From an uncultured Lachnospiraceae bacterium (lineage in GTDB: Bacteria; Bacillota; Clostridia; Lachnospirales; Lachnospiraceae), in the NCBI GenBank assembly GCA_947652925.1, contig CANTEW010000007.1:18079-82078 (forward strand): a DNA stretch of 64,000 nucleotides, in the 5' to 3' direction. Each line of letters starts with the position of its first letter. Position 1 is the stretch's first letter. The notes under the pieces are model-generated. The model was given only the letters and a program-made list of their open reading frames with translations, searched no databases and was not told where the DNA came from. Below are positions 47,245 to 63,465 of the stretch, piece by piece. A program made the translations under genes and the position numbers.

Positions 47245-47257
47245 TCAAGCGGTGCAT

Positions 47258-48004
47258 ATGGAAAAACAAGTATTATTAAATACATATGTCAATAATGTGG
47301 ATATGGATGAAACGGTAGATATGATAGAGCGGTTCATCACACAAAAGAAGAAGGCATATGTTGTCCCAGTTAATGTTGATGTTGTCATGAGGATTGAGCA
47401 GGATCGTTATCTGAAAAAAATTGTTGATGACGCGGATATCACCCTTGTGGACGGAAAACCATTGATCTGGATCTCAAATCTTTACAAAAGGCCGATAAAA
47501 GCAAAAGTTTCCGGGTCAGACTTAGTACCTTCTCTTTGTAAGTTGTCTATGCAGAAAGGGTATAGTCTTTTTATCATAGGCGGCAAACAAGGCGTTGCGG
47601 AAAAGGCAAAGATAAACTTAGAAAAAGGATTGCCAGGCATACGCATAAATGGTACATACGCACCTCCCCTAGGATTTGAGGAAGATCCGGATGAGATAAA
47701 AAAGATCAATGATATGATATCAGAGTCTCATCCGGATCTGTTGATCGTTTGTTTTGGATGTCCTAAACAAGAAAAATGGATATATGAAAATCACCAAAAA
47801 TACGATGCATATGTTTCAATCTGTGCAGGGGCAACAGTAGATTTCTTGGCAGGAGATATAAAGCGTGCCCCAAGCTGGGTGAGTATGTATGGCTTGGAAT
47901 GGCTATATAGGTTCTTACAAGAACCAAGACGATTGTTCAAAAGGTATTTTATAGATGATATAAAAATCCTAAGATTAATATGGAAATATAAAGACAGATG
48001 CTAA
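47258..48004 (+). CDS. WecG/TagA/CpsF-family glycosyltransferase
   Basis: A 248-residue membrane-associated glycosyltransferase of the WecG/TagA group (GT26), which adds N-acetylmannosamine or ManNAcA to a lipid-linked sugar. NVDVVMRIEQDRYLKKIVDD, DADITLVDGKPLIW, LFIIGGKQGVAEKA, CFGCPKQEKWI and CAGATVDFLAGDIKRAPSWV are characteristic. Since the locus makes a mannosaminuronic acid derivative, that donor is a reasonable guess. It starts shortly after gmhA; the GTG two codons earlier is an alternative. Confidence 0.9.
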   Translation: MEKQVLLNTYVNNVDMDETVDMIERFITQKKKAYVVPVNVDVVMRIEQDRYLKKIVDDADITLVDGKPLIWISNLYKRPIKAKVSGSDLVPSLCKLSMQKGYSLFIIGGKQGVAEKAKINLEKGLPGIRINGTYAPPLGFEEDPDEIKKINDMISESHPDLLIVCFGCPKQEKWIYENHQKYDAYVSICAGATVDFLAGDIKRAPSWVSMYGLEWLYRFLQEPRRLFKRYFIDDIKILRLIWKYKDRC

Positions 48005-48025
48005 AAAGGAGAATGGGTCAATGAT

Positions 48026-49111
48026 ATGAGGATCTTACATATTACACGAGTGGTCAGTATTGGCGGGACCGAGAAAGTGATCCGGCAGATATGCGAGGTA
48101 TCCCGAGGACAATTTGAACGGATGATATTATGTGCTGCCGACGGAGGTGGGATCTCTACATTTAATGGATGTATCGATAAATATTATGAGATTGATGATA
48201 TGCAGAAAAAGGATCCTTTTATTTTTTTTAAGATCCTTTTTACTTTGAGCGATGTCATCAGGAAAGAACATATAGATGTCATCCATGTACATCACAGGAT
48301 GGCAGCGATGTATATAAAGATATTAAATATTTTTTTTCATAAAACATTGATCTACAATGGACATTGTATCCATGAGGATAAAAGATTCTTAACAAAGATA
48401 GCATTGAATGGCTACCATATCATTGCTGTTGGAAATAAGGTGAAGAAAAACCTGGTCGATTTCCATAAGATAGATAGCCGGCATATCAAAGTGATCCCTA
48501 ACACGGTGGATAAATCTGATGGGATCGCTTCTGAGGATCAGAGGCTTTCTCAATTAAAGAAAAACGGGAATATACTCGTCGGGAATGTAGGAAGACTTTC
48601 GAAACAAAAGGGTCAAAGATATTTTCTCCAAGCGGCATCATCAGTCATTAAAAAGTTTCCAAATGTTTTTTTTATACTCGTAGGTGATGGAGAGTGCAGG
48701 GAAGAACTTGAACGATCTGTTGATGAGATGTCTATAAATGATAGAGTTATTTTTTTAGGTTTTAGGGACGATGTGAGGGACCTGATGCACCAATTCGATA
48801 TATTAGTCTTGAGTTCCCTGTGGGAGGGGCTTCCATTAGTACCGATCGAAGCTTTTTCAGTTGGAAAAGCAGTGATCGCCTCAAATATAGATGGTACGGA
48901 TGAGATAGTCGAAGATGGGATAAATGGGATATTGTATGATCCTTATGGGGCAGATCTATTAGCCGAAAAGATCTGTCATGTGATCTCTGACCCAAAAGAA
49001 TGGGCGCGGTTATCCCAAAACGCTCTGGAGAGTTATGAAAAAAAATATAGCTATCAGATTTTTAGTGATCGTTATAAAGAATATTATCATGATGTTTGCA
49101 GTATAGATTGA
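48026..49111 (+). CDS. GT4-family glycosyltransferase
   Basis: A 361-residue GT-B glycosyltransferase. N-terminal HITRVVSIGGTEKVIRQI is the acceptor-side glycine loop; the C-terminal domain has VGRLSKQKGQRYFLQAA, LGFRDDVRDLMHQFDILVLS and the EGLPLVPIEAFSVGKAVIAS donor motif of GT4 enzymes. It is likely to act in assembly of the repeat unit on the cytosolic side of the membrane. Donor and acceptor cannot be told. Confidence 0.9.
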   Translation: MRILHITRVVSIGGTEKVIRQICEVSRGQFERMILCAADGGGISTFNGCIDKYYEIDDMQKKDPFIFFKILFTLSDVIRKEHIDVIHVHHRMAAMYIKILNIFFHKTLIYNGHCIHEDKRFLTKIALNGYHIIAVGNKVKKNLVDFHKIDSRHIKVIPNTVDKSDGIASEDQRLSQLKKNGNILVGNVGRLSKQKGQRYFLQAASSVIKKFPNVFFILVGDGECREELERSVDEMSINDRVIFLGFRDDVRDLMHQFDILVLSSLWEGLPLVPIEAFSVGKAVIASNIDGTDEIVEDGINGILYDPYGADLLAEKICHVISDPKEWARLSQNALESYEKKYSYQIFSDRYKEYYHDVCSID

Positions 49112-49146
49112 TTTCGATATCTAGCATATACAGAGGGGAGAGTCTG

Positions 49147-50283
49147 ATGCATCCTAATGTCAGTGTAGTCGTACCAATATATAAAGTAGAAAGATATATA
49201 AGAAAATGTTTGGATTCCATCATAGGTCAATCTTATCAAGATTTCGAGATAATCCTTGTAGATGATGGATCGCCAGATGACTGTCCTAAAATCTGTGACC
49301 GATATGCTGATAAAGATACACGGATAAAAGTTATCCATAAAGAAAATGGGGGCCTAGTCTCAGCCTGGATGTGTGGTATTGATAATTCCAGCAGGGATTC
49401 AGAATTTGTTACTTTTATAGATCCTGATGATTGGGTAGCTGAAAGATATATAGAGGCTATGGTTGAAATACAAAAGAAAACAGATGCTGATATCGTCCTA
49501 GTGGAAACAAAGAAGGAAAATCAAGAACATGAATATAAGGGCAGTTTTAAGATACCAGTATCTTTTTATGATGAAAGATCATTGATAAATGATATATATC
49601 CGATCATGCTCAATTCAGGTGATTTCGAAAGTAGGTCTGTCCCTATATCAAGATGTGGTAAACTTATTAGGAAACAGTTTGTTTATCCTAATCTAAAATA
49701 TTGTTCCGCATCTGTGACTTATGCGGAAGATCTGAACATCATCTTTCCGATCCTTCTTGATATAAGGTCTATGGCACTCATTGATGACGCAGATTCTGTT
49801 TATTTTTACAGGATGAATCTTTCCTCGATGCTAAATTCATATGACAGGAATATGCTCAAGAGTATAGAACATGTATATCCTTCATTGTTGCAGATATGCA
49901 AAGATAAAGCAAAGGCTGAGTTTATCCCTCAAGTATATGCAGATTACTTGGCTGCATCTGTGCAATACTTTAAAAATGAATTACAAAACCCAGGAGGGCT
50001 TAAAGAAGCGCGGAAAAATATCAGAAATTTTATAACCAGCAATGATCTGTTAAAAAAATCTCTCCAAATGACTGATTGGAAAAGATACAGCAGAAGATTG
50101 AATAAAATGATAATCTGGGCAATGTCTGATTATGGTCATTTTAATAGATATATCTTAACAGGTTTACTGTGTATTTTGAAAAAATATAAAGTATGGAAAT
50201 TTCAAATGACGCAGAAAAGCACTGATATTCCAGAAAAAGAACAGGGAGAATCTTGTCATGAAAAAATTTTTGATCATCAGTGA
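49147..50283 (+). CDS. GT2-family glycosyltransferase
   Basis: A 378-residue GT-A glycosyltransferase. VSVVVPIYKVERYIRKCLDS, LVDDGSPDDCPKICDRYA and FIDPDDWVAERYIEAMVE (the DxD-like segment) are typical of GT2. The ATG at 49147 has GGGGAGAG upstream; the longer reading overlaps the previous gene. It is followed with a 26-nt overlap by another glycosyltransferase gene. Product specificity is unknown. Confidence 0.9.
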   Translation: MHPNVSVVVPIYKVERYIRKCLDSIIGQSYQDFEIILVDDGSPDDCPKICDRYADKDTRIKVIHKENGGLVSAWMCGIDNSSRDSEFVTFIDPDDWVAERYIEAMVEIQKKTDADIVLVETKKENQEHEYKGSFKIPVSFYDERSLINDIYPIMLNSGDFESRSVPISRCGKLIRKQFVYPNLKYCSASVTYAEDLNIIFPILLDIRSMALIDDADSVYFYRMNLSSMLNSYDRNMLKSIEHVYPSLLQICKDKAKAEFIPQVYADYLAASVQYFKNELQNPGGLKEARKNIRNFITSNDLLKKSLQMTDWKRYSRRLNKMIIWAMSDYGHFNRYILTGLLCILKKYKVWKFQMTQKSTDIPEKEQGESCHEKIFDHQ

Positions 50284-51601
50284 ATACATCGCTCCTTTCC
50301 AGGCCATCGCATCCATACGATGGACAAAGATCTCTAAATATCTGAAAAAGGATCATGATGCGGATATTTCTGTGTTGACGATCAACAAGAGGTATAGAGG
50401 GATAGATCCGGATCTGACATCGACAAGGATCGATGATCTGCTAAAAAAAGATCTAGTGTATTTCCATGATCATCAAATGGTGCCTAGTGGAAGACAAGTG
50501 GGGACATATTATAAAATAAGGAATTTTATCCGCATGAAAAAAAGGAGGATGCTCCAGAGTGATCGTAATGAAGAGAAAGATGCATGTGTTTCACATAGGG
50601 CAATGTGTAAAGAAAAGATCCGTAGAGGTATGATAAAAGCAGATGTGATACTCAATAAATGGCTACAATACTCGATCACAAGTCAGGTGTTGAAATATGC
50701 AAAGAATATGGGACTCGAGCGGTATGACGTGGTCATATCGTCATATGGACCGATCTGGACGCATTTAGTAGCGGAACAGATTAAAAAATTGTATCCGGAA
50801 ATATGCTGGATTGCTGATTTCCGCGATCAATATGCTGCTGATCAGGATAGCAAGATGGAGTTCAAAAAACATAAACAATTCACTAAAAAACATTGTATGC
50901 AAGCAGATTATCTTTTAAGAGTCAATGACAGGCTTAATCTATATGAAGCAAAGACACAAAAAGTCATAACTATCAATAACGGGTACGATCCTGATGAAGC
51001 AGTGGATCCGTTGCCTCCTTCAAAATTTAATGTCGTCTATACAGGAACGGTCTATGAACTGGATGATTTAAGTGAAATGTTCCACGCTTTTAGAGAATTG
51101 ATCGACAGTGGGATGATCGATGAGGAAGATATTGTATTTCAATATGCTGGATTTACAGGAGATTTATATTCAGGATTTGTTGATAAATGGGATTTAGGGC
51201 ATTTATTCAATGATCTGGGAGTTGTGGAACGTAAAAAAGCTTTATCTTTGCAGCAAAACGCGGCCATCTTGGTCATGGCGAGATGGAATACTAAGATCAC
51301 ACATTGTGAGTGGAGCGGAAAAATGTATGAATATATGATGGCTCAAAAACCGATCATTTATATGATGGCTGGTGATGAACCGGATAGCCTTCCGAGCAGG
51401 GATATGGAAAAATTAGGAGGGATCTGTTATGAACAATGCCGTCATGAAGAGACCTATGTCCTGCTAAAAAATTATATCATACAAAAATATTCGGAGTGGA
51501 AAGATACAGGGAATGTAACAATAGAAGGGGATATCGATTATAGGAATAAATACGCATATCCAGTGATAGCAGAACAAGTATGGACTCTGGTACAGGGATA
51601 A
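50258..51601 (+). CDS. Glycosyltransferase (GT4-like, GT-B fold)
   Basis: A 447-residue protein. The N-terminal LIISEYIAPFQAIASIRWTK (acceptor-domain loop), ISSYGPIWTHLVAEQIKKLY and WIADFRDQYA are seen in WbuB-like glycosyltransferases. The second domain contains FNVVYTGTVYELDDLSEMF and KMYEYMMAQKPIIYMMAG. AGGGAG precedes the ATG, which lies inside the end of the GT2 gene. Substrates unknown. Confidence 0.82.
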   Translation: MKKFLIISEYIAPFQAIASIRWTKISKYLKKDHDADISVLTINKRYRGIDPDLTSTRIDDLLKKDLVYFHDHQMVPSGRQVGTYYKIRNFIRMKKRRMLQSDRNEEKDACVSHRAMCKEKIRRGMIKADVILNKWLQYSITSQVLKYAKNMGLERYDVVISSYGPIWTHLVAEQIKKLYPEICWIADFRDQYAADQDSKMEFKKHKQFTKKHCMQADYLLRVNDRLNLYEAKTQKVITINNGYDPDEAVDPLPPSKFNVVYTGTVYELDDLSEMFHAFRELIDSGMIDEEDIVFQYAGFTGDLYSGFVDKWDLGHLFNDLGVVERKKALSLQQNAAILVMARWNTKITHCEWSGKMYEYMMAQKPIIYMMAGDEPDSLPSRDMEKLGGICYEQCRHEETYVLLKNYIIQKYSEWKDTGNVTIEGDIDYRNKYAYPVIAEQVWTLVQG

Positions 51602-51619
51602 GAACAAGGATGGACAAAA

Positions 51620-52936
51620 ATGAAAGATAGATTGCTTGATAAGATTGCAGACCGCACCATTGTAGCAGGTGTTGTAGGCCTTGGATATGTGGGACTCCCT
51701 CTTGCGGTAGAAAAAGCAAGAGCGGGTTTTAAAACAATTGGATTTGATATCCAAACCTCAAAAGTTGAGATGGTAAATGCTGGCCACAATTATATTGGGG
51801 ATGTGGTTGATACAGATCTTGCAGACCTTGTCAAAAGTGGGAGATTGAGTGCTACATCAGATTTTAGCTTTGTCAAAGATGTGGATTTTATCGCTATATG
51901 TGTTCCTACTCCGTTGGACAAACATCAAGAACCAGATATCCGATATGTCCGTGATTCGGCTATTGCCATTTCTAAATACCTACGTGCAGGGACAATGGTC
52001 GTCCTTGAATCTACTACATATCCTGGCACAACAGAAGAACTGCTCAGACCAATCCTTGAAGAAGGCAGCGGGTTGATCTGTGGAAAAGATTTTTATCTTG
52101 GCTTTAGTCCTGAACGGGTGGATCCTGGAAATCTGATCTACAAGACCCAAAATACTCCGAAAGTTGTAGGGGCGATAGGCAGTGAGGCAGCTGAAGTCAT
52201 AGCTGCTATGTATCGTTCTGTTTTAGAGGGCGAAGTATTCACCGTTTCCAGCCCATCTGTCGCGGAAATGGAAAAAATATTAGAGAATACATACCGTAAC
52301 ATCAATATTGGACTCGTAAATGAACTAGGAAGGCTATGTCACGAGATGGGTATCTCAGTATGGGAAGTTATCGACGCGGCCAAAACAAAACCTTACGGTT
52401 TTCAGGCATTTTATCCAGGGCCGGGTCTAGGCGGGCATTGTATCCCTCTCGATCCATATTATCTCACATGGAAAGCACGTGAATATGGTTTCCATACTAC
52501 TTTGATCGAAAACAGCATGATCATCAATGACAGCCAGCCTAGATATTGTGTAGAACGGGCTATGCATATTTTGAATAGGCATAAAAAAGCTATCAATGGG
52601 GCCAAGATATTGCTCTTAGGGGTTTCTTACAAAAATGACATCGATGACTATCGTGAAAGCCCAGCTATCCGTGTATATAAAGAGTTAAGGAAAGTTGGTG
52701 CGTTTGTTGATTATTTTGATCCTTGGGTACCTGAATTCAGAAATATGTATGGTGAGAGTGGACAGAGTATCCCTAAGCTCACATCAAGAGTCATTGCGGC
52801 GTATGACCTTGTCATGGTCACTGCCGCACACCAAAACATTGATTATGCAATGGTACAAGCTAGTGCAAAGATTATTTTTGATACTAAAAATGTGATGAAA
52901 AATATCATACCTAGAGAAAATATCGAGGTGTTGTAG
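51620..52936 (+). CDS. wbpA: UDP-N-acetyl-D-glucosamine 6-dehydrogenase (WbpA type)
   Basis: A 438-residue NAD-dependent dehydrogenase making UDP-GlcNAcA. The Rossmann motif is GVVGLGYVGLPLAVEKARAG, and the catalytic cysteine is in GPGLGGHCIPLDPYYL near 273. The late GVSYKNDIDDYRESPAIRV belongs to the UDP-binding domain. Context with wbpI-, wbpB-, wbpD- and wbpE-type genes favours this over a UDP-glucose or UDP-ManNAc dehydrogenase. The next gene begins immediately at its stop. Confidence 0.92.
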   Translation: MKDRLLDKIADRTIVAGVVGLGYVGLPLAVEKARAGFKTIGFDIQTSKVEMVNAGHNYIGDVVDTDLADLVKSGRLSATSDFSFVKDVDFIAICVPTPLDKHQEPDIRYVRDSAIAISKYLRAGTMVVLESTTYPGTTEELLRPILEEGSGLICGKDFYLGFSPERVDPGNLIYKTQNTPKVVGAIGSEAAEVIAAMYRSVLEGEVFTVSSPSVAEMEKILENTYRNINIGLVNELGRLCHEMGISVWEVIDAAKTKPYGFQAFYPGPGLGGHCIPLDPYYLTWKAREYGFHTTLIENSMIINDSQPRYCVERAMHILNRHKKAINGAKILLLGVSYKNDIDDYRESPAIRVYKELRKVGAFVDYFDPWVPEFRNMYGESGQSIPKLTSRVIAAYDLVMVTAAHQNIDYAMVQASAKIIFDTKNVMKNIIPRENIEVL

Positions 52937-54028
52937 ATGAAAGTTGTGACTGTCGTAGGTGCAAGACCGCAATTTATCAAAGCTGCTGTAGTTTCACATG
53001 TGTTGAGGAAAAAACATGAAGAGGTCTTGGTACATACAGGCCAGCATTATGATCATAATATGTCAGGGAGATTCTTTGAAGAATTGGATATACCACAACC
53101 AGATCATAACCTTGGGATCTCAGGGGGGAGTCATGCCTCGATGACTGGTCATATGATGATCTCCATTGAAAGAGTTCTGGTCAAAGAACAGCCTGACTGG
53201 TTACTTGTATATGGTGACACGAATTCTACACTTGCAGCAGCACTTGCAGCAGCTAAATTACATATTCCAGTCTGTCATGTGGAAGCAGGAGTGCGTGTCC
53301 ATAGTCAAACGAATCCAGAAGAGATCAACCGTATTTGTACCGATCATGTTTCTACTCTTTTACTGGCAAGTACAGAAAAAAGTTATCAAGAGATGAAAAA
53401 AGAGGGTTTATATCAGAAGGGCCGGTTAGTTGGTGATCCCATGTATGATGCATTCTTGGAATATTGTGAGAAAGTTCCCCTAGAGGATGTTAAGCTCCAA
53501 CTTTTATGTGATGGGATGATATATGTGCCAAATGAATTTTATTATTTAACTTGCCATAGAGAAGAAAATACGAGTGATGATAAAAACTTATTTAAGATAT
53601 TCAGTGCAATGGAATGTTTAGATGCACCTACGATCTATCCAGTACATCCACGAAATAAAGAAAGAGCTTTAAGACTAAAAAAAAGATTTGATTTTAACAA
53701 TATATTATTGACTGAACCGATAGGATATCTGGAGAGCATTTGTCTTGTAAAACACGCAAAAAAAATAGTGACAGATTCAGGCGGCTTGCAAAGAGAAGCA
53801 TTCTTTGCAAGAAAACAATGCTTGACGATCTTGGATTTTGTCTGCTGGCCTGAGACAATGGTAGGTAATCGGAATCAACTATCAAAACCAGATCCAAAGG
53901 AGATATTAAAAAAATTATCTTGTGTCCAAAAGATAGATACACAATATACTCCATTTGGCGATGGACATTCTAGTGAAAAGATTGTAGCGGCAATGGAAGA
54001 TGTCTTTGTAGATCTTACGAAAATATGA
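52937..54028 (+). CDS. wbpI: UDP-sugar 2-epimerase, non-hydrolysing (WbpI type)
   Basis: A 363-residue epimerase of the WecB/WbpI group. VVGARPQFIKAAVVSHVL, HTGQHYDHNMSGRFFEELDI, YGDTNSTLAAALAA, HVEAGVR, NPEEINRICTDHVS, TCHREENT and SGGLQREAFF are conserved. The loop usually RSFNRRMPEEINR is RVHSQTNPEEINR here. In this setting the expected substrate is UDP-GlcNAc(3NAc)A, giving UDP-ManNAc(3NAc)A; a plain UDP-GlcNAc epimerase is the alternative. GAGGTG lies 6 nt before the ATG. Confidence 0.88.
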   Translation: MKVVTVVGARPQFIKAAVVSHVLRKKHEEVLVHTGQHYDHNMSGRFFEELDIPQPDHNLGISGGSHASMTGHMMISIERVLVKEQPDWLLVYGDTNSTLAAALAAAKLHIPVCHVEAGVRVHSQTNPEEINRICTDHVSTLLLASTEKSYQEMKKEGLYQKGRLVGDPMYDAFLEYCEKVPLEDVKLQLLCDGMIYVPNEFYYLTCHREENTSDDKNLFKIFSAMECLDAPTIYPVHPRNKERALRLKKRFDFNNILLTEPIGYLESICLVKHAKKIVTDSGGLQREAFFARKQCLTILDFVCWPETMVGNRNQLSKPDPKEILKKLSCVQKIDTQYTPFGDGHSSEKIVAAMEDVFVDLTKI

Positions 54029-54513
54029 TGGATACAAAAAAGATTTTGTATTTCCATGTGGTAAAGAAAAACTACAGGGGTTCATTTCTTCATTGCCCCA
54101 TGATCCAGTCAGTATCCATAATCTGGTGAGGGGATCATTTAAATGATCCACATATCTATGGTGATATCTGTACATTAAGAGATTATCGCAATGCGATCAC
54201 ATATATCAGCAATATAATAAAGCCATGTTATATCGCATTGAGTGATGTTATCCGGTGGGCAGAACATAAGCTACATCTGCCTGATGCGATATATATTGAA
54301 AAAAGTATGTTCGATGAATATGACGACTGGTATGATATGTGTATCATGAGTAAATGCCATCATAATATCATCGCGAATAGTTCCTTCAGTTGGTGGGGAG
54401 GATGGTTGAATGGGCATCCAGATAAAATAGTGATAGCCCCGCCATATTTTGTTAATCGTTATAAGCATAGGCGTTTAGCTTGTGATGATTGGGTCACGAT
54501 AAAAGGATATTAG
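54029..54513 (+). pseudogene. Decayed GT11 (alpha-1,2-fucosyltransferase type) gene
   Basis: From 54238 the frame reads a good GT11 C-terminus: CHHNIIANSSFSWWGGWLNG, HPDKIVIAPPYFVN and CDDWVTIKG. Upstream, the same frame from about 54135 gives NDPHIYGDICTLRDYRNAIT without a start. Before that, other frames give KEKLQGFISSLPHDPVSIHN, the region preceding the conserved GDP-binding HIRRGDY, which is missing. At least two frameshifts and loss of the N-terminal ~100 residues make this a pseudogene of about 150 of the usual ~290 residues. It sits between the wbpI and wbpB genes. Confidence 0.82.
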
Positions 54514-54532
54514 AAAAACGGGAGGCGATGGG

Positions 54533-55618
54533 ATGAGATATGCGTTGATCGGCTGTGGGCGTATTGCGGTGAACCACATAAAGGCAGCCATGGATAATCA
54601 TCTGGAAATTGTTGCAGTATGCGACCTGTCCCTTGAAAAAGCCAGATGCTTATTGGATGGACATAGCCTTGGCACAGATAAGGGCATCACATATTATAAA
54701 GACTATAAAGAGATGATATCGGAAGATCCAAACATAGAATTGATCGCGATCGCAACGCCCAGTGGGACGCATGGAGAGATTGCGTTATATTGCATCAATA
54801 AGGGGATCAATGTCATCATAGAAAAACCGATGGCGATGGATATGGCTGATGCAGAAAAGATCATCCGATGCAGCGAGGAAAAAGGAGTTGCTGTATGTGC
54901 CTGCCATCAGAACAGGTTTAATGAAGCGGTTAGGGAGACGAGGAGAGCTTTAGCATCCGGAAGGTTTGGTAAACTCTCACACGGGAGCGTCCATGTACGT
55001 TGGAACCGTGATGAGGATTATTATAAACAAGCGTCCTGGCGTGGTACATGGGCAGAAGACGGTGGATGCCTGATGAACCAATGTATCCACGGGATTGACT
55101 TGCTCCGCTGGATGATGGGAGATGAAGTGGATACAGTTTACGGCGTTACCCGGCAGCAGAGGCATCCATATATAGAGACAGAAGACATTGGCATGGCTAT
55201 TGTCACATTTAAAAATGGAACGGTCGCAACGATCGAGGGGACTACCAATGTCTATCCCAAAAACTTAGAAGAAACACTTTATCTATTTGGAGAAAAAGGG
55301 ACCGTAAAGATCGGTGGGAAGTCAGCAAATGACTTGGACATATGGGAATTTGCTGACGAGACAGCGAAAGATCAGGAAAATAAAGGGCTAAAGGAACAGA
55401 CAAGCAATGTTTACGGCAATGGGCACACAAGTTTGTATGCTGATATGATCGACGCGGTCCAAAATCGACGAAAACCGTATGTGGATGCAGTCGCGGGATG
55501 TAATGCTCTAGAGATCATCCTTGCGATCTATAAGAGCATGAAGACTGGACAGCCAGTCAACCTGCCGTTGAGGGATTTTTCAAGCATTGATATGAAGGGG
55601 ATATTCGATAATGTCTGA
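54533..55618 (+). CDS. wbpB: Gfo/Idh/MocA oxidoreductase (WbpB type)
   Basis: A 361-residue NAD-dependent oxidoreductase that oxidises the 3-hydroxyl of UDP-GlcNAcA. The Rossmann start is YALIGCGRIAVNHIKAAMDN, the conserved EKPMAM carries the catalytic lysine, and HVRWNRDEDYYKQASWRGTW with GGCLMNQCIHGIDLLRWMMG is specific to the WbpB/WlbA branch. GGGAGG lies 7 nt upstream. It overlaps the acetyltransferase gene by 8 nt and works with the WbpE aminotransferase. Confidence 0.92.
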   Translation: MRYALIGCGRIAVNHIKAAMDNHLEIVAVCDLSLEKARCLLDGHSLGTDKGITYYKDYKEMISEDPNIELIAIATPSGTHGEIALYCINKGINVIIEKPMAMDMADAEKIIRCSEEKGVAVCACHQNRFNEAVRETRRALASGRFGKLSHGSVHVRWNRDEDYYKQASWRGTWAEDGGCLMNQCIHGIDLLRWMMGDEVDTVYGVTRQQRHPYIETEDIGMAIVTFKNGTVATIEGTTNVYPKNLEETLYLFGEKGTVKIGGKSANDLDIWEFADETAKDQENKGLKEQTSNVYGNGHTSLYADMIDAVQNRRKPYVDAVAGCNALEIILAIYKSMKTGQPVNLPLRDFSSIDMKGIFDNV

Positions 55619-56249
55619 ATATTTTATCCATGAGAGCAGTTATGTGGATGATGATGTAAGGATCGGGGAACGGACTAGGATATGGCATTTCTGTCATATC
55701 CAGAAGGGTGCATCCATAGGGAAGGATTGTACTTTTGGACAAAATGTAAATGTTTCGGATAATGTCAAGATCGGGAACGGGGTAAAGGTGCAGAATAATG
55801 TGTCGATCTATGAAGGTGTTGAACTGCAAGATCACGTATTCTGTGGGCCATCCATGGTCTTTACCAATGACTTGACGCCGCGTGCCAGATATCCGAAAGG
55901 ACATGATGTTTACAAAAAAACATTGGTCAAGACTGGAGCAACGATCGGTGCAAATGCAACGATCGTTTGCGGCCATGTACTCGGTGAATGGTGCATGATC
56001 GCAGCTGGCGCTGTTGTCACAAGAGATGTCCCGCCACATGCGTTGATGGCGGGCATACCGGCACGTCAGACTGGATGGGTATGTGAATGTGGACATCTCT
56101 TGGACAGTGGCCTAGAGTGTCTGGGTTGTGGTAGAAAATACATCATGGAAGAACGGTCAGCATCCAATATGGAGAGTCACTACCTAAAGATCAAAGGGGG
56201 GGGTAAAAAGCTGAGTCTTGGGATACCCTCCGTTGGGTTTGCGGCATGA
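55611..56249 (+). CDS. wbpD: N-acetyltransferase, left-handed beta-helix (WbpD type)
   Basis: A 212-residue hexapeptide-repeat acetyltransferase that N-acetylates the 3-amino group of the UDP-sugar acid. RTRIWHFCHIQKGASIGKDC with QNVNVSDNVKIGNGVKVQNN and the SIYEGVELQDHVFCGPSMVF segment are typical of WbpD/WlbB. The C-terminal CECGHLLDSGLECLGCGRKY forms a zinc-ribbon-like tail also found there. The final ~20 residues are encoded across a G8 run at 56196-56203, and gain of one G would stop translation right after it. The stop overlaps the ATP-grasp start. Confidence 0.93.
   Translation: MSEYFIHESSYVDDDVRIGERTRIWHFCHIQKGASIGKDCTFGQNVNVSDNVKIGNGVKVQNNVSIYEGVELQDHVFCGPSMVFTNDLTPRARYPKGHDVYKKTLVKTGATIGANATIVCGHVLGEWCMIAAGAVVTRDVPPHALMAGIPARQTGWVCECGHLLDSGLECLGCGRKYIMEERSASNMESHYLKIKGGGKKLSLGIPSVGFAA
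56196..56203 (+). repeat. G8 homopolymer near the wbpD 3' end
   Basis: Eight G in a row in an AT-rich gene. In the present length the tail IKGGGKKLSLGIPSVGFAA is read. With nine G the frame stops at TAA directly after the run; with seven it stops two codons later. Only the last residues and coupling to the next gene would change. Confidence 0.7.
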
Positions 56250-57208
56250 TGGGGCGGGACGGTATCCATAAAAAGACCAAGATATTGATAGGGAGCAATG
56301 GTGGGCTTACCGGCATATATCTGGCCAAAGAACTGAGGAGGATGGAGGATGTCATATTATGTGGGGCAGACAGTTCGGACATCTGTACAGGCAGATTTTT
56401 TGTGGATGAGCAAGTCTGTCTGCCAAATGCGTGGGACCCGAGATTTATCGACAGCCTTATCGGTGTATTAGATGCAGGAGAGGTCGATATCTATCTGCCA
56501 ACGCATTCCAGGGAGATAAAGGCCGTTTCCATGAACGGGTCGAGGATACGCAGGCAAGTCGGGACAAAGTTTATCGTTTCCCCTTATGGGACATTTGAAG
56601 CTCTAGACGATAAAGCAGCAGCGAACCGGAACCTGCGCCGGATCGGGATACCTGTGCCTGATCTGATAGAAGGCCTGAGCGAGCGATACCCTATCTTTAT
56701 GAAGCACCGGGTGGGGAGTGGCAGCACTGGGGTGATGGTGATCGAAAATCCAGTCATCCATAAGGCATATCTGGATACGTGTAAAGACGTATCATTTTTC
56801 CAGTTGGTACAAGGCAGGGAATATACTGTAGACTGCCTGTTTGATGGGGAGGGGGAGCTATTGGGATATAACCAAAGGCGGCGTATCAAGACGATAGGCG
56901 GTGCTGCTGCCATCACACAGAATGACCATCGTTTTGATATCGATCCATGGATCAGGCGGATAGCTAGTTCCTGGAGATTCCGGGGCTGTGTCAATTTTCA
57001 ATATATAGTCAGGGATGGGGTGCCATATTTTATCGATGTGAACCTGAGGTATCCATCAGGCGGCCTGCCATTGACCGTCCAGGCAGGTCTGGACATACCC
57101 AGGTTGGTAGTGGAGATGCTGCTGGGCAGGAAAGTGGGTCCTGGGGACCTAAAGTTAACGGGGACACCTGATACCATGTACCGTTACTTTGAGGAGATCT
57201 TTGAATGA
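56246..57208 (+). CDS. ATP-grasp domain protein
   Basis: A 320-residue ATP-grasp family protein resembling the carbamoyl-phosphate synthase large chain/biotin carboxylase fold. A Rossmann-like N-terminal part (LIGSNGGLTGIYLAKELRRM) precedes the grasp: FMKHRVGSGSTGVMVIENP, VQGREYTVDCLF and the metal-binding VNFQYIVRDGVPYFIDVNLR with YPSGGLPLTVQAG. These enzymes form amide-type bonds with ATP. Its position inside the wbpA-E gene run, ATG overlapping the wbpD stop, suggests it modifies the same sugar, perhaps by adding an amino acid; no direct evidence. Confidence 0.85.
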   Translation: MMGRDGIHKKTKILIGSNGGLTGIYLAKELRRMEDVILCGADSSDICTGRFFVDEQVCLPNAWDPRFIDSLIGVLDAGEVDIYLPTHSREIKAVSMNGSRIRRQVGTKFIVSPYGTFEALDDKAAANRNLRRIGIPVPDLIEGLSERYPIFMKHRVGSGSTGVMVIENPVIHKAYLDTCKDVSFFQLVQGREYTVDCLFDGEGELLGYNQRRRIKTIGGAAAITQNDHRFDIDPWIRRIASSWRFRGCVNFQYIVRDGVPYFIDVNLRYPSGGLPLTVQAGLDIPRLVVEMLLGRKVGPGDLKLTGTPDTMYRYFEEIFE

Positions 57209-57804
57209 GGGCGTTCATCGATCTGGACGGGACACTCCTGGACTTATGGCCGAGATACTATCGTGTATTTTGCGGACTGCTCCACACAGATGGCATCACT
57301 TTGGGAAGATATAAAGAAAAAAAACGGGAGCTTGTCCAGGACAGTGCAGTAGCCGAGGCTTTTGGACATGCATTATCTCCGGGCCATTTCACAAAAAAAG
57401 CGGAGTTGTTGGAAGACAAGAGATATCTTTTACTCGACAGGTTATGTCTACCACAAGAACAGATTGAGACAATATTTGCAAAAGGGAATGCCATGATCCT
57501 CACAAAGCGGAGACAACCTGATAATCTAGAGTGGCAATTGGATAGATTGGGGATCAGGGTACCTGTCGCTATCGTGAGGGATCAGACAAAACTGCAGTGG
57601 ATCAAAGAAAACCATCCAGATGAGGAAGCTGTGATGGTCGGCGATTCCATGATAGATATGGAGACAGGGCAGATGCCAAATATCTCGGTCATCATGGTCG
57701 GATATGGATTAGGGACGAAGGGACAGTTTGACAGCGTCGGTATCCCATATACATATGCAGACACAGCAGCTTCAATGGCCAGGCACCTCAGGACATATCT
57801 TTAA
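57205..57804 (+). CDS. HAD-family hydrolase
   Basis: A 199-residue haloacid dehalogenase-like protein. Motif I is FIDLDGTLLDLW, motif II appears as LTKRRQ, and motif IV is MVGDSMIDMETG. The cap between is short. It overlaps the ATP-grasp gene by 4 nt (ATGA), so the two are strictly coupled and probably act together. GAGGAG precedes the ATG. A phosphate intermediate of the sugar side-chain is an attractive but unproven substrate. Confidence 0.83.
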   Translation: MRAFIDLDGTLLDLWPRYYRVFCGLLHTDGITLGRYKEKKRELVQDSAVAEAFGHALSPGHFTKKAELLEDKRYLLLDRLCLPQEQIETIFAKGNAMILTKRRQPDNLEWQLDRLGIRVPVAIVRDQTKLQWIKENHPDEEAVMVGDSMIDMETGQMPNISVIMVGYGLGTKGQFDSVGIPYTYADTAASMARHLRTYL

Positions 57805-57836
57805 TATAGATCTATAGACAAGGCAGGGGAGAGAAG

Positions 57837-58970
57837 ATGGAATTCCGGGATTTAAAGAAACAATATGAGGTCTTAAAGCCACAGATCGATACAGCTGTCC
57901 TTGATACCATGAGAGGAGCGCATTTTATAGGTGGCCCACAAGTCGAGAGATTAGAAAAACGGCTGGCAGAATATGTAGGGGTACGACATTGCATCACTTG
58001 TGGCAATGGCACAGATGCACTAGTACTGTCATTGATGGCATGGGGGATAGGTCCAGGGGATGCTGTCTTTGTGCCAGACTTCACATTTTTTTCTAGTGGT
58101 GAGAGCCCGGCTTTTTTGGGAGCGACACCTATATATGTGGATGTAGAGAAAGATACCTATAATATCGATCCAGCCAAGTTGGAGATGGAGATCCTGAGGA
58201 TAAAGTCAGAGGGTAGATGCATCCCCAAGGCCGTAGTGGCAGTCGATCTGTTTGGGCAACCTGCGGATCATCCAAGGATCAAGCCTATCTGTGAAAGATA
58301 TGGTCTGTGGCTTTTAGAGGATGGGGCGCAGGGATTTGGCGGGGATATAGATGGACAGAAGGTGTGCAGTTTTGGTGATATCTCAACAACAAGTTTTTTT
58401 CCTGCAAAACCGCTCGGATGTTATGGCGATGGCGGGGCAGTCTTTACAGATGATGATGACCAGGCGGCACTGATACGGAGTTTGAGTGTGCATGGAAAAA
58501 ATGGGGAAGATAAATACAACAATGACCGTATCGGTATGAACAGCCGTCTGGATACGATACAAGCATCCATATTGTTGCCAAAATTCAGAGCATTTGAGCG
58601 GTATGAATTGGAGGCTGTGAACAGAGTCGCTGCCTGGTATACAGAAAACCTGGAAGGCAGCGGCCTCACGCTGCCGGTCATTCGGGAAGGTTTTTTTAGT
58701 AGTTGGGCACAATATACTGTCCAGATCCCAGATGGGAGTGACAGGGGGCTTCTCCAGTCAAGATTAAAAGAGGCAGGCATCCCGACAATGGTATATTATA
58801 AAAGGCCTATGCATCTGCAGGGAGCGTTCCATGACACATACAGTGCCATCGCGGACTGTCCGGTGACAGAACAACTTTGCGGGCAAGTCCTGAGTCTCCC
58901 GATGGGACCTTATATGACGGAAGATGAGGTGGGATATGTCGCTAGGGTTTTAAAAAAATTTTTAACATGA
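57837..58970 (+). CDS. wbpE: DegT/DnrJ/EryC1-family aminotransferase (WbpE type)
   Basis: A 377-residue PLP-dependent sugar aminotransferase that installs the 3-amino group on the UDP-3-keto-GlcNAcA made by WbpB. The N-terminal MEFRDLKKQYEVLKPQI and GNGTDALVLSLMAWGIGPGD are typical, as is the PLP-lysine motif TSFFPAKPLGCYGDGGA with Lys191. EDGAQGFGGDIDG carries the aspartate that contacts the PLP nitrogen. It completes a five-enzyme route to UDP-ManNAc(3NAc)A. The IS5-type element lies 39 nt behind its stop. Confidence 0.93.
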   Translation: MEFRDLKKQYEVLKPQIDTAVLDTMRGAHFIGGPQVERLEKRLAEYVGVRHCITCGNGTDALVLSLMAWGIGPGDAVFVPDFTFFSSGESPAFLGATPIYVDVEKDTYNIDPAKLEMEILRIKSEGRCIPKAVVAVDLFGQPADHPRIKPICERYGLWLLEDGAQGFGGDIDGQKVCSFGDISTTSFFPAKPLGCYGDGGAVFTDDDDQAALIRSLSVHGKNGEDKYNNDRIGMNSRLDTIQASILLPKFRAFERYELEAVNRVAAWYTENLEGSGLTLPVIREGFFSSWAQYTVQIPDGSDRGLLQSRLKEAGIPTMVYYKRPMHLQGAFHDTYSAIADCPVTEQLCGQVLSLPMGPYMTEDEVGYVARVLKKFLT

Positions 58971-59009: not shown

Positions 59010-59889
59010 GAGCGTGTTTGAAAAATACAATGTTTTAGTCAATTTAACCAAATGAGTATGGAGGCGATGTAGATAAAACCAAGATAAGTTGAGGCAAGTT
59101 TATCATATCTGGTAGCGATCCTACGATATGCTTTGAGTTTAAGGAAAAGTTTTTCGACCAAATGCCGTTCTTTATAGAGCCACCAGTCACAGTGACGCTG
59201 GAATTTAGCATTCTTTCTTGAAGGGATGGTGGGTCCACCACCGCGGTCATAGATATGATCGATGAGTTTATTACTGTCATATCCACGGTCCGCAAGCACG
59301 CTGCTCCCTTCAATGTTTATATGTTCCAATACAGGGGATCGCATAATCAATATCATTACGCTGTCCTTCGCTGAGCATGATATAAAGAGGACAGCCATAT
59401 GCATCTACGGCAGCATGGATCTTAGTGCTTGGTCCACCGCGGCTGTGCCCGATCTCGTTAGGGGATCCATCTTTTTTGGCGCCAGCACTGTGCCGATGGG
59501 CCTGGACAATGGAAGTATCCAGTGAGACCTCACTTAACTCAGCATCCATAGCCAGAAAACGGAATATCCTGTTTAACAGGCCGCTGCTGGTCCATTTCCG
59601 GAAACGGCTGTAAACACTCTCCCATGGGGCATAATATTCAGGCAGATCCCGCCATGGGGAACCACTCCGGGCAATCTATATCATTGCGTTTAACATGATA
59701 CGATTGTCTTTTAACGGTCTTCCACGTTTTCCAGTCTTTTCAGGCGGGAGAAAAGGAGCTGTCTGTTCCCATTGCTGATCTGTTGATCCATAACGCCTCA
59801 ACATACTGATTACCCCTTTTTTATTTTACCATAAAAAAGGGGAGGGGCAACCATATATTTTGTGCAATTTTTATTTTTCAAACACGCTC
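59010..59889 (-). mobile_element. IS5-family (IS427-like) insertion sequence, degenerate
   Basis: An 880-bp element flanked by TA (within CTAG on both sides). The terminal inverted repeats are perfect for 18 bp (GAGCGTGTTTGAAAAATA). A single minus-strand transposase gene fills it, with two defects. Its ends match those of the 160-bp foldback elements at 791 and 1544 in 14-16 of the first 17 positions. Size and the TA/CTAG target fit the IS427 group of IS5. Confidence 0.88.
59039..59805 (-). pseudogene. IS5-family transposase, one stop and one frameshift
   Basis: Translation from ATG 59805 gives LRRYGSTDQQWEQTAPFLPP, GRPLKDNRIMLNAMI, an in-frame TAG where tryptophan (TGG) is expected, then IARSGSPWRDLPEYYAPWES, the DTSIVQAHRHSAGAKK and SRGGPSTKIHAAVDAYGCPL segments. 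A one-base shift near 59345 moves to the frame with SSVLADRGYDSNKLIDHIYD and RHLVEKLFLKLKAYRRIATR. DDE residues are present in both pieces. The IS427 group may use frameshifting, but the TAG makes this copy probably inactive. Confidence 0.85.
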
Positions 59890-59977
59890 TAGTCTCTTTT
59901 TTTTGAAATAAAAATACCATATCGGTTTAATGAATAGGTATAAAAAATACAGAACATTTAAATATCAGGAGATCAGG

Positions 59978-60598
59978 ATGAAAAAGAAAATGCTTTTAGT
60001 GACTCATGGTTTCCCATTCGGTGAGAGCGAGAGAGGATTTATCAGTACAGAATTTGAAAGATTGGCGGATCATTTTGATATAGATATCCTGGCATGTGAG
60101 ACACATGAAGAGATAAAATACCCAATACCAAGTAGCAAGAACATCAATATGGAGAGATTTGTTTATAGCAAAAAAAAGCCATCTAAGATTATCCTGCAGA
60201 TATTCAGAAAAGATGTGAGAGAAGATATCAAAAGGGCGAGTAAAAGTTCTCTGACCAAATTGTCTTTATATCGGGCGAAAAAAATATTATCTTACAGTTT
60301 TAGAGTTGGCCTCATCCAAAAAGAGGTTGAAAAGATCATCCAAAAAGATAAGATCGATCTGATATATACTTATTGGGGGACTGAAGAACTTGTTGCTGCA
60401 TTACGTCTAAAAGAAAAGTATAAAAATATTAAAGTGATCACAAGATTCCATGGTTATGATCTATATACTGAAAGGAGTGAGGTAGGATGGCAGCCTTTTC
60501 AACAATATAAGGCTGATCATTGTGATCGTATTTTTTTTGTTTCTAATGCTGGAAAAAAGTATTTTACTGAAAAATGGGGGGGGACAAGAATCATGTAG
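59978..60598 (+). CDS. Glycosyltransferase, N-terminal half, cut at a G8 run
   Basis: 206 residues of a GT4-like glycosyltransferase acceptor domain: LLVTHGFPFGESERGFISTE at the start and YTYWGTEELVAALRLKEKYK with VITRFHGYDLYTERSEVGWQ further on. The frame runs through eight consecutive G (60576-60583) and stops at TAG shortly after. The C-terminal half follows in another frame; with nine (or six) G, both halves would join as W-G(-G)-D-K-N-H-V-A-Y-L-G. Start chosen after CAGGAGATCAGG. Either a pseudogene in this isolate or a phase-variable gene in the off state. Confidence 0.8.
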   Translation: MKKKMLLVTHGFPFGESERGFISTEFERLADHFDIDILACETHEEIKYPIPSSKNINMERFVYSKKKPSKIILQIFRKDVREDIKRASKSSLTKLSLYRAKKILSYSFRVGLIQKEVEKIIQKDKIDLIYTYWGTEELVAALRLKEKYKNIKVITRFHGYDLYTERSEVGWQPFQQYKADHCDRIFFVSNAGKKYFTEKWGGTRIM

Positions 60599-61203
60599 CA
60601 TATCTGGGAACTCCATCTATGCATAAAAATGTCCGATTTGGATCAGAAGAGATTGTTTTAGTTAGTTGTTCAAATCTTATTAAGTTGAAAAGAGTAGGAT
60701 TGATCATCCAGGCGATAGCCTCTCTCCCAGAAAATATCCGGATCACTTGGAATCATATAGGTGATGGACCAGAAAAAGATAAACTATATAAACTTGCAGA
60801 AAATATATTGTCACCAAAAGAAAATATCAAGTGGAAATTTTGGGGTTACATACCAAATAAAGATATAGAAAAGATTTATCAGAAAATAGGGCCGCAACTT
60901 TTCATAACTGTTTCATCAAGCGAGGGTCTACCAGTATCTGTCCAAGAAGCTTTTGCAATGGGCATACCCGCTATCGGGACAGACGTAGGCGGCATGAGAG
61001 AATTGATCATAGATAATAAAACCGGTTTTTTACTACAGTCGGATCCAACTGTTGAAGAGATTGTAAAAGCTATAAATAAATTTTATCATATGTTAGAGTG
61101 GGAGAAGGAAGAAATGTCAGATATGGCATTTCAGATATGGGATGAAAGTTTTGATGCTAAGAAAAAGGCAAAAGATTTTGTGAAGACAATAGAAAATTTA
61201 TGA
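60574..61203 (+). CDS. Glycosyltransferase, C-terminal half, behind the G8 run
   Basis: 209 residues forming the donor-binding domain of the same GT4 enzyme: LVSCSNLIKLKRVGLIIQAI, GDGPEKDKLYKLAENIL, WGYIPNKDIEKIYQKIG and the signature SSSEGLPVSVQEAFAMGIPA with IGTDVGGMRELI. It has no credible ribosome-binding site of its own, so the first ATG at 60574 is only the open-frame limit. It should be made only as part of the fused protein. Confidence 0.8.
   Translation: MGGDKNHVAYLGTPSMHKNVRFGSEEIVLVSCSNLIKLKRVGLIIQAIASLPENIRITWNHIGDGPEKDKLYKLAENILSPKENIKWKFWGYIPNKDIEKIYQKIGPQLFITVSSSEGLPVSVQEAFAMGIPAIGTDVGGMRELIIDNKTGFLLQSDPTVEEIVKAINKFYHMLEWEKEEMSDMAFQIWDESFDAKKKAKDFVKTIENL
60576..60583 (+). repeat. 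G8 homopolymer inside a glycosyltransferase gene
   Basis: Eight consecutive G in a clearly AT-rich gene, exactly where the reading frame breaks. Nine or six G would restore the full-length enzyme of about 408 residues. Confidence 0.85.
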
Positions 61204-61302
61204 TAAATATATATTATAATTGTGTCTTTTTATTAATATAGATTCTTTTATTCCATATCGAAAAATAAGTAAAGATAATCAAATAGTTTAATGGTGTATA
61301 AA

Positions 61303-62202
61303 ATGAAAAAAATCACATTAATTGGCTCTTTACAAGGAGAACATATCTCTGATTTATTAAATAGAAATGGATTAAAAGCTGTCTATATTAAACAAAAAAA
61401 TAATAATTTGCTCTATAAATTAAAAGTGGCATATCACTGTTTGGTTACGGATTATGTTTATTTGATCTATATCGGATATGCGCCTAATAGAAAATTTCTT
61501 AAATATCTGCGATTACTTAGAAAAAAAATTGTTTTTCATTGGATAGGGACAGATGTCTACAATTGTATACATAATTCAGAAACAAACGTTCAGTATCCAT
61601 TAGATATTACTCATCTTGCAGGAAGTCAATTACTTCATGATGAATTAAAAAATATTGGGATAAAATCAATCATAGTGCCTATCATTCCTTTTTCAATGGA
61701 TTTATCAATTATGGATATGCCAGATACACATCGTGTATTAAATTATGTCCCTAATGGAAGAGAGCGTTTTTATTCTGCTGACGTTGTCGTCAATCTAGCA
61801 AAGAGAAATCAAGACATAATATTTGATGTCGTAGGGACTGATAAATTTGAAGGGATTAATGAAATCCCTGAAAATATATGTTTTCACGGCAAGGTATCTA
61901 AAGATGGAATACAAAAAATATATAAAAATATAACAATTCTTTTAAGGATACCTTTACATGATGGATTATCTATGATGGTGATTGAAGCATTAGCAAAAGG
62001 AAAGTATGTTTTATATAAATATAGGCATCCATATGTTTACACACCAGATTCCAATGATATTGAAGACATAGACAAAACACTAAAAAAGATACTTAAATCC
62101 AAGCCTAAAATAAATTTTCGAGGACATGACTATGTAAAAAAATATTATAATGAGGATGAAATGATGAAATTGTATAAGATAAATAAAATATTTGGGGAAT
62201 AA
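61303..62202 (+). CDS. Glycosyltransferase (GT4-like)
   Basis: A 299-residue protein with a GT-B-like C-terminal half: ENICFHGKVSKDGIQKIYKN, LRIPLHDGLSMMVIEALAKG (the E-x7-G/E-type donor motif) and a helical tail. The N-terminal half (LIGSLQGEHISDLLNRNG, IVFHWIGTDVYNC) fits short GT4-like enzymes. The start is uncertain (61291 or 61303), with no strong ribosome-binding site. Codon use is very AT-rich, more than in the genes before the IS element. Confidence 0.75.
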   Translation: MKKITLIGSLQGEHISDLLNRNGLKAVYIKQKNNNLLYKLKVAYHCLVTDYVYLIYIGYAPNRKFLKYLRLLRKKIVFHWIGTDVYNCIHNSETNVQYPLDITHLAGSQLLHDELKNIGIKSIIVPIIPFSMDLSIMDMPDTHRVLNYVPNGRERFYSADVVVNLAKRNQDIIFDVVGTDKFEGINEIPENICFHGKVSKDGIQKIYKNITILLRIPLHDGLSMMVIEALAKGKYVLYKYRHPYVYTPDSNDIEDIDKTLKKILKSKPKINFRGHDYVKKYYNEDEMMKLYKINKIFGE

Positions 62203-62205
62203 GAT

Positions 62206-63465
62206 ATGGATAACTTCAAAGTTAAATTTTGTATTATAGGTGCCGGTGTATCAGGACTTGCTTTTGCTGGAAAAATCCCAAGTAACGAATACATGATCAT
62301 TGAAAAAGAAAATGAAATTGGTGGATATTGCAGGACAATCAAACAAGATGGATTTATTTGGGATTATGCAGGGCATTTTTTTCATTTTATGAATCCAGAT
62401 ATCAAACGTCAATTTACAAGTTTATTAAATGCAGATACGACTATTTATCAAAAAAAGAAAACAAAAATTTATTATAAAGATACTTTGATAGATTATCCTT
62501 TTCAGTTTAATATTCATCAATTAGAAAAGAAAGAGTTTATCGATTGTCTTTGTGATTTATTTCAAACTTATGATCAAACAGATATAAATTCATTTAAAGA
62601 AATGTTGTATGCTAAATTTGGTGTAGGGATTGCAGAAAAGTTTTTAATCCCTTACAATGAAAAATTGTATTCCTGCGATTTAGACATGCTTGATATAAAT
62701 GCAATGGGCAGATTTTTTCCAAAAGCTGAACCAATTGAAATAATAAATGGATTTCGAGGGAATAAGATACAAACGTACAATGAAGAATTCTTTTACTCTT
62801 CTGAGGGAGCAGAAGCATTTATAAGAGTTTTAATGAATGATCTAGATTCTTCAAGGTTCATATTATCAGAAACGGTAAAAGCGATCGATCTTGAACAGAA
62901 AAAAGTTTATACAGATAATATGTTTATAGAATATGACTACCTTATCAATACGATTCCATTTGACCTTTTTTTAAAGATAGCTCAAATACCACATAAAGAA
63001 TCTTATACAGCAAATAAAGTACTTGTTTATAATATAGGGTTTGATTCAGGAGCAGAAGCCAATGATATACATTGGATTTATTATCCAGAGAAGAAATACA
63101 TTTTTTATCGCGTAGGATTTTATAATAACATTCTTCATACAGATAAAATGAGCATTTATGTGGAGATTGGACAAAAAGGGATAGAAAAAGTTGATAAAAA
63201 AAAATATCTAAAAAGAGTGTTGGAGGATTTAAGAAAAGTAGGGATTATAAAAACTCAAAAAGTTATTTCATATGCTGTACTTGAAATGTTGCCAGCATAT
63301 GTCCATATTTCAGAGAAAACACAAAAAGAAAAAGAAACTATAGTAGAATTTTTAAAAGAAAAAGATGTTTATACTATAGGTCGTTATGGAAGTTGGACTT
63401 ACTGCTCATTAGAAGATTGTATTTATCAGGCACAAAATCTTCGAAGAAAAATAATGGATACTTGA
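62206..63465 (+). CDS. FAD-dependent oxidoreductase, UDP-galactopyranose mutase/amine-oxidase-like
   Basis: A 419-residue flavoprotein. FAD is bound by CIIGAGVSGLAFAGKI and IEKENEIGGYCRTIKQDGFI; the WDYAGHFFHFMNPDIKRQF segment and the C-terminal GRYGSWTYCSLEDCIYQAQN are like UDP-galactopyranose mutase and related NAD(P)-binding amino-oxidase-like proteins of polysaccharide loci. True mutases are about 370-390 residues, so it may be a mutase-like enzyme of another substrate. It starts 4 nt after the preceding gene, with GGGGAATAAG upstream. Confidence 0.82.
   Translation: MDNFKVKFCIIGAGVSGLAFAGKIPSNEYMIIEKENEIGGYCRTIKQDGFIWDYAGHFFHFMNPDIKRQFTSLLNADTTIYQKKKTKIYYKDTLIDYPFQFNIHQLEKKEFIDCLCDLFQTYDQTDINSFKEMLYAKFGVGIAEKFLIPYNEKLYSCDLDMLDINAMGRFFPKAEPIEIINGFRGNKIQTYNEEFFYSSEGAEAFIRVLMNDLDSSRFILSETVKAIDLEQKKVYTDNMFIEYDYLINTIPFDLFLKIAQIPHKESYTANKVLVYNIGFDSGAEANDIHWIYYPEKKYIFYRVGFYNNILHTDKMSIYVEIGQKGIEKVDKKKYLKRVLEDLRKVGIIKTQKVISYAVLEMLPAYVHISEKTQKEKETIVEFLKEKDVYTIGRYGSWTYCSLEDCIYQAQNLRRKIMDT

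Follow-up and report, generated by a model that had tools for sequence, protein, structure and literature searches.

Does a run of eight guanines that splits a glycosyltransferase gene mark a switch, or a gene that has been lost? The question is raised by a GT4 (family 4 glycosyltransferase) gene in a polysaccharide cluster of an uncultured Lachnospiraceae bacterium, within a stretch of 64,000 nucleotides that was analysed as a whole (the window; GenBank assembly GCA_947652925.1, contig CANTEW010000007.1, positions 18,079 to 82,078 of the forward strand). An earlier reading of the letters alone, the sequence-only reading, had proposed that the run (G8) is a probable phase-variation switch of a capsule gene. 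We examined the split gene, the G runs of the whole genome and those of related genomes, and we consider it likely that the G8 belongs to a set of poly-G contingency tracts that extends over the whole genome, with the GT4 gene assembled in an OFF-like state.

The run stands exactly at the frame break, as the sequence-only reading had stated (Table 1). The first open reading frame (ORF) terminates 15 bases past the run, and the second begins at the run in a different frame and overlaps the first; by eye, the ATG at 59979 is the likely true start of the gene. Pfam assigned an acceptor-domain match to the first ORF (PF13439, E-value 1.6e-06) and a donor-domain match to the second (PF00534, E-value 2.5e-27), and these two domains flank the run in different frames. 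Both halves align inside one ORF in three relatives, L043, L044 and L045, found in Oscillospiraceae and Clostridia assemblies, where the intact gene measures 456, 429 and 430 codons, respectively, from stop to stop. Aligned separately, the two halves are collinear with these relatives over nearly their full length. The sequence-only reading had named additional inactivating changes as a sign against a switch; in comparison with the three intact relatives, at 36-48% identity, no further lesion was seen in either half. Its frame arithmetic, by which nine or six Gs would fuse the halves, is right, and the gene is AT-rich as described, with a GC content of 0.321 over positions 60001-62000. Among the 60 other genomes searched, the best match by E-value was 41% identical (E-value 1.1e-15).

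At eight bases, the run exceeds the minimum length of seven that PhasomeIt applies to poly-G/C tracts of phase-variable loci (PMC6321876). The genome comprises 2.9 Mb in 100 contigs, in which runs of G or C were counted, and the merging of 68 overlapping G8 matches left 29 runs of at least eight. By length, there were 29 runs of seven, seven of eight, 12 of nine, five of ten, three of 11 and two of 12. Expectations were derived from the number of runs of exactly seven (G7) with an extension probability of 0.19 (measured on the window), 0.25 or 0.30. While 1.3-3.7 runs of at least nine were expected, 22 were seen (Poisson P at most 1e-10), and such runs therefore form a separate enriched class, with the G8 at its lower edge. 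T is the next base after 18 of the 29 runs of at least eight and after one of the 29 G7 runs (P = 2e-6), by which the long runs seem to be a population distinct from the G7 runs.

The surroundings of all 29 long runs and of the 29 G7 runs, which served as controls, were examined and the genes were scanned with Pfam. Glycan or surface genes account for 16 of the 29 long runs, counting runs inside the gene, a short way before it or in its promoter, and for four of the 29 G7 runs (one-sided Fisher P = 0.001). The sorting into gene classes was our own and post hoc, and it was looser for the long runs, where neighbouring genes were included, than for the G7 runs, where only the longest covering ORF counted. 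Among the sixteen are three Acyl_transf_3 genes, two FkbM and two TylF-type methyltransferase genes (for one TylF-type gene the run lies 171 bases 5' of the ORF), two GT4 genes including that of the window, and a hexapeptide acyltransferase. The others are two runs in one YfhO gene and single runs at genes for NKWYS, DUF6056, an Ig-domain surface protein and LRR_5, the last of these in the promoter. Two further long runs are less clear, one inside a glycan cluster on contig C29 and one on contig C45, upstream of an Ig-domain protein by 342 bases. The four G7 runs counted as glycan were those in GT2, a DUF268/methyltransferase gene, FdtA and a domain-less gene on C29; examples of the remainder are DXS, TrpA, Hsp33, Mur ligase, penicillin-binding protein, TrmK, homoserine dehydrogenase, glutamate synthase, MoeA, a class II tRNA synthetase and ORFs without a domain.

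The tract genes differ in their frame state. Besides the GT4 gene of the window, two genes have a frame break at the run and match their family profile on either side of it. In an Acyl_transf_3 gene on C82, the run separates profile positions 2-197 from 223-324, and in the DUF6056 gene on C88 it separates positions 4-158 from 172-440. Inspected by eye, the two FkbM genes on C49 and a TylF gene on C40 probably change frame at the run as well; their Pfam domains lie wholly 3' of the run, and the upstream piece is assigned to them from our reading of the sequence. For a second TylF case, on C82, the frame change is less clear still. Acyl_transf_3 genes on C40 and C49, a GT4 gene on C49 and the NKWYS gene on C6 are in frame across their runs. 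A phase-variable set would be expected to show such a mixture of on-like and off-like genes in a single genome.

If the G8 belongs to such a set, slippage of the strands during replication would lengthen or shorten it. As assembled, with the frame interrupted at the run, the gene would yield a truncated acceptor domain and the GT4 enzyme would be off. A change to another length, in the right residue class, would join the frames and reversibly turn the enzyme on, upon which a sugar could be added to the surface polymer or the polymer extended. The other coding tracts may act likewise on O-acyltransferases, O-methyltransferases, another GT4 and the DUF6056 membrane protein.

A second class of tracts, to which the run in the LRR_5 promoter belongs, lies in promoter spacers. 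Among the contexts of runs fetched from family genomes were some with TTGACA, about ten bases, the G run and then TAGAAT or TATAAT. We searched with the pattern TTGACA-N5..14-G7-TANAAT, allowing spacers of 12-21 bases, and with the reversed pattern as a control. Of 397 family genomes from 334 genera, 31 contained the pattern; the sites numbered 42, represented 40 distinct strings and had 7-11 Gs between the elements. The reversed control gave none. Among 391 class-wide genomes, ten carried it, two of them in the family, again with zero matches for the reversed control; the frequency outside the family (8/375) was lower than inside (31/397; P = 4e-4). The genome under study has one site, on C32, with a spacer of 19 bases. 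The LRR_5 protein downstream of it has a signal-like start, and the tract between the -35 and -10 elements would set the transcription of this leucine-rich repeat (LRR) surface protein. Thirty of the 42 sites were fetched, and in 29 of them an ORF starts within 500 bases. By a crude rule, a signal or membrane segment stands at the ORF start in 18 of these 29 and in none of the other 11, which include ABC-transporter-like starts. Three of the ten promoter-class genes scanned with Pfam were LRR_5 and six were without a Pfam family.

Spacers of 14, 15, 16, 17, 18, 19 and 20 bases occurred three, two, six, three, 11, 13 and four times, respectively. They dip at 17 bases, between the six sites of 16 and the 24 of 18-19, as if the optimum were avoided in assemblies. 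The lengths of 18-19 in 24 of 42 sites and of 17 in three of 42 would fit a mostly-off promoter default.

Long runs are also found in related genomes. Four other genomes of the genus contain 12, 9, 6 and 1 runs of at least nine, and among ten tract ORFs chosen from these 28 runs were Acyl_transf_3, two hexapeptide genes, PglD with hexapeptide, TylF, LicD and MBOAT. In the family, at least one run of at least nine was present in 96 of 150 genomes, which represent 150 genera. The load is patchy and does not track the number of G7 runs. Among the 28 of the 150 genomes that were tabulated, with the extremes picked by us, runs of at least nine and G7 runs numbered 33 and 2 in G088, 26 and 5 in G033, 15 and 4 in G104, 13 and 5 in G020 and 8 and 2 in G016 at the high end, and 0 and 44 in G078, 0 and 40 in G125 and 1 and 115 in G161 at the low end. 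Thirty loci were fetched from four high- or low-load family genomes, and the nine that we chose from these, belonging to G016, G033 and G104, included GT2, three Acyl_transf_3 genes, a tandem glycosyltransferase and a GINT1-type domain; in some of the other fetched loci the run was intergenic. Taken together with the promoter sites, these data lead us to lean towards a patchy two-tier system in the family, in which coding tracts would switch glycan enzymes and promoter tracts would set the levels of LRR and other secreted proteins, making these multi-locus phase-variable species outside the classic pathogens.

As a separate observation, the family genome G174 (1.6 Mb, 68% complete) has 126 runs of at least nine and 50 of seven. 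In G000, G002 and G004 there are surface proteins whose signal peptide is followed by a run; that these are orthologues with differing tracts was considered and rejected, as there was no BLASTP match between them.

Besides the unequal sorting of gene classes, several points weigh against assigning the G8 to a contingency set. Runs of exactly eight occur at chance level (seven seen, 5.5-8.7 expected), and the length of the G8 alone would not justify a claim of phase variation. The three intact relatives have no poly-G at the break site but other residues. Eleven of the 29 long runs lie elsewhere than in glycan or surface genes, namely in or near aconitase, MTTB, DUF1538, a GHKL sensor, an unknown 437-codon gene and a phage XkdX gene, at a group II intron flank, an insertion sequence (IS) end and a contig end, and in two intergenic places. 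Three of the ten scanned tract genes of the genus are not clearly glycan genes (radical SAM, glyoxalase-like and one without a family), and AraC, AMP-binding and GDSL genes were found among the nine chosen loci of G016, G033 and G104. The basis is one assembled genome of the species, and the IS directly upstream of the GT4 gene could itself affect expression. Finally, mutS1 was found over the cut-off in the genome under study and in 19 of the 20 genomes checked, and in the twentieth it was split between two contigs (mutS search only). Slippage may therefore be slower than in bacteria that lack mismatch repair, and the tract set is independent of mutS1 loss. Campylobacter, where slippage takes place in a mismatch-repair-deficient background, is not known to have mutS.

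The strongest alternative is that the GT4 gene is a plain pseudogene, in which a single indel at a chance G8 broke the gene, which is now in decay. The chance-level frequency of G8 runs fits this explanation, as do the surroundings, where a second broken gene (a family 11 glycosyltransferase remnant of 91 amino acids) is present and the IS stands beside the GT4 gene. However, both halves still align to intact relatives with no other lesion seen, and in the same genome two more glycan-type genes, and probably three more besides, break at a G run, and further tract genes read through theirs in frame. On balance we regard simple decay as unlikely. It is also conceivable that the run length is an assembly or sequencing error and that the GT4 gene is intact in the sequenced cells. 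Homopolymers are error-prone, two of the 22 runs of at least nine are no more than 100 bases away from a contig end, and in Bifidobacterium breve the length annotated for one tract, G11, made up a minority in the culture (37%, with G12 at 60%; PMC9187656). Miscalls alone, on the other hand, would not yield an excess of long runs, many of them in glycan genes, and a mixed population, which would give the same picture, is itself what a contingency tract predicts; we thus consider a mere error improbable. Programmed recoding, in which the ribosome or RNA polymerase slips at the run and some full-length enzyme is made from the G8 gene, has in its favour the overlap of the frames at the run, the layout that slippage in expression needs, and is nevertheless highly improbable given tracts that span 8-12 Gs, both in frame and out of frame, and similar tracts in promoter spacers, where recoding has no role.

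The proposal of a phase-variation switch at the G8 is upheld in part: it is supported by the break at the run without another lesion, by the excess of long G runs, by the mixed frame states of the tract genes and by the similar tracts of related genomes, but not by the length of eight as such.

Slippage of poly-G in coding regions, where it changes the frame, and in promoter spacers, where it changes promoter strength, is a well-known mechanism. The descriptions that follow reflect the cited passages on each system. In Campylobacter, both coding and promoter poly-G tracts have been described, and tracts of at least eight were shown to switch in C. jejuni (PMC6321876). The set described here resembles that phasome in its lengths, with 12 runs of G9 and five of G10 among the 22 of at least nine, and differs from it in that the host appears to belong to an unrelated phylum, mutS1 is present, 11 of the 29 long runs lie outside surface genes and the lengths come from a single assembly. 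In the C. jejuni gene cgtB, which encodes a lipooligosaccharide galactosyltransferase, a poly-G tract was present as a population of 8 and 9 Gs, with a frame change and truncation (PMC6437147). The likeness lies in the poly-G inside a glycosyltransferase gene; here, in contrast, the enzyme is an uncharacterised GT4 in a polysaccharide cluster. In the gut bacterium B. breve, a G-tract splits a pilus gene into two ORFs much as in our case, and replication slippage was measured by deep sequencing in one or two pilus clusters (PMC9187656), whereas the present case consists of 29 long tracts, many in glycan or surface genes, known from sequence only. The homopolymers between the -35 and -10 elements of the Neisseria genes fetA and porA, whose length alters expression (PMC5320596), are similar to our promoter-spacer tracts, which were found by pattern alone and in what appears to be a Clostridia-class family. 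Overall, the tracts are best read as a Campylobacter- or Neisseria-style phase-variable poly-G set in what is presumably a Clostridia-class bacterium.

Among the papers listed by full-text literature searches, by which subscription journals are mostly uncovered, there was no report of poly-G phase variation in Lachnospiraceae. Mrazek's older survey of simple repeats, from 2007 and cited in PMC11868660, might include such genomes. If the proposed set is real, these presumable gut commensals would carry tens of poly-G tracts, many of them in glycan or surface genes. Such tracts could account in part for how strains come to differ at the surface, resist phages and escape antibodies while their gene content stays the same, and a glycan gene that is annotated there as broken might then be off, not dead.

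Table 1. Positions of the split GT4 gene, its G run and the neighbouring features in the window.
Feature	Positions	Strand	Basis or remark
Upstream polysaccharide genes	47252..58970	+	Pfam; further GT4- and GT2-like ORFs interspersed, by eye only
Family 11 glycosyltransferase remnant, 91 aa, C-terminal	54238-54513		Profile positions 213-283 of 298
Hexapeptide acyltransferase bearing second G8	55611..56249	+	ORF
Second G8 of the window, in frame near acyltransferase 3' end	56196..56203	+	Run search
IS element, DDE transposase piece, matching ends	59010..59889	-	40-90 bases upstream of GT4 gene
GT4 N-terminal half, acceptor domain	59930..60598	+	ORF, PF13439, 36-40% to intact relatives
G8 run, candidate slippage tract, at frame break	60576..60583	+	Sequence, frames on either side
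GT4 C-terminal half, donor domain, other frame	60574..61203	+	ORF, PF00534, PF13692, 42-48% to intact relatives
Downstream gene, weak glycosyltransferase match	61291..62202	+	PF13692, 24 bits, under Pfam cut-off of 27
NAD-binding/amine-oxidoreductase-fold gene	62206..63465	+	Pfam
GT2 glycosyltransferase, cut by window end (= contig end)	63507..64000	+	ORF, Pfam

The genes upstream of the GT4 gene encode, by Pfam, a WecG/TagA-type glycosyltransferase, a UDP-sugar dehydrogenase, a UDP-GlcNAc 2-epimerase, an oxidoreductase, a hexapeptide acyltransferase, an ATP-grasp protein and a DegT aminotransferase. Downstream, the NAD-binding gene is one that we take to be UDP-galactopyranose mutase-like. 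The product of the cluster may reasonably be called a capsule, the name used in the sequence-only reading, and could also be another surface polymer. The ends of the IS match (GAGCGTGTTTGAAAAAT), and Pfam finds only a 121-amino-acid transposase piece within it. An Rfam scan of the window at the gathering score gave no match. The family 11 glycosyltransferase remnant is a broken glycan gene without a G run of at least eight.

The hexapeptide acyltransferase of the cluster carries the second G8 of the window, and in the present frame its stop overlaps the next start (ATGA). By eye, stops follow this run within four codons in both other frames, so a change in its length could alter translational coupling rather than acyltransferase activity.

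Two glycosyltransferases with a G9, L032 (= L167) and L039 (= L117), were considered as carriers of a tract at the same site as the GT4 gene of the window. They were rejected, since their G9 lies between a complete glycosyltransferase and an extra donor domain and not between the acceptor and donor domains. L167 (from G016) and L117 (from G002) belong to different genera and are 36% identical in protein sequence, and both consist of a complete glycosyltransferase plus the extra donor domain. The G9 is common to both at an R-G-G-V junction, with a TAA after the run in another frame, and a change in its length could switch between a single and a fused enzyme. Among the 29 loci fetched for this query, a G run of at least seven was present only in the query's own locus.

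Some of the long runs of this genome lie in or beside mobile elements. A G12 (L081, 3031-3042) is located within the phage XkdX-type gene, which is possibly a phase-variable prophage gene; a search of viral contigs for relatives of this gene, for comparison of tract lengths among near-identical phages, found none. A G10 (L082, 3052-3061) lies 34 bases before an Rfam group II intron match with a reverse-transcriptase gene, and a G9 (L092, 3043-3051) adjoins the end sequence of an IS related to that of the window. Two long runs (G000:C41:13-23 and G000:C45:72-81) are less than 100 bases from the first base of their contig, and three long runs of G088 lie at most 20 bases from a contig start; assemblies seem to break at such tracts.
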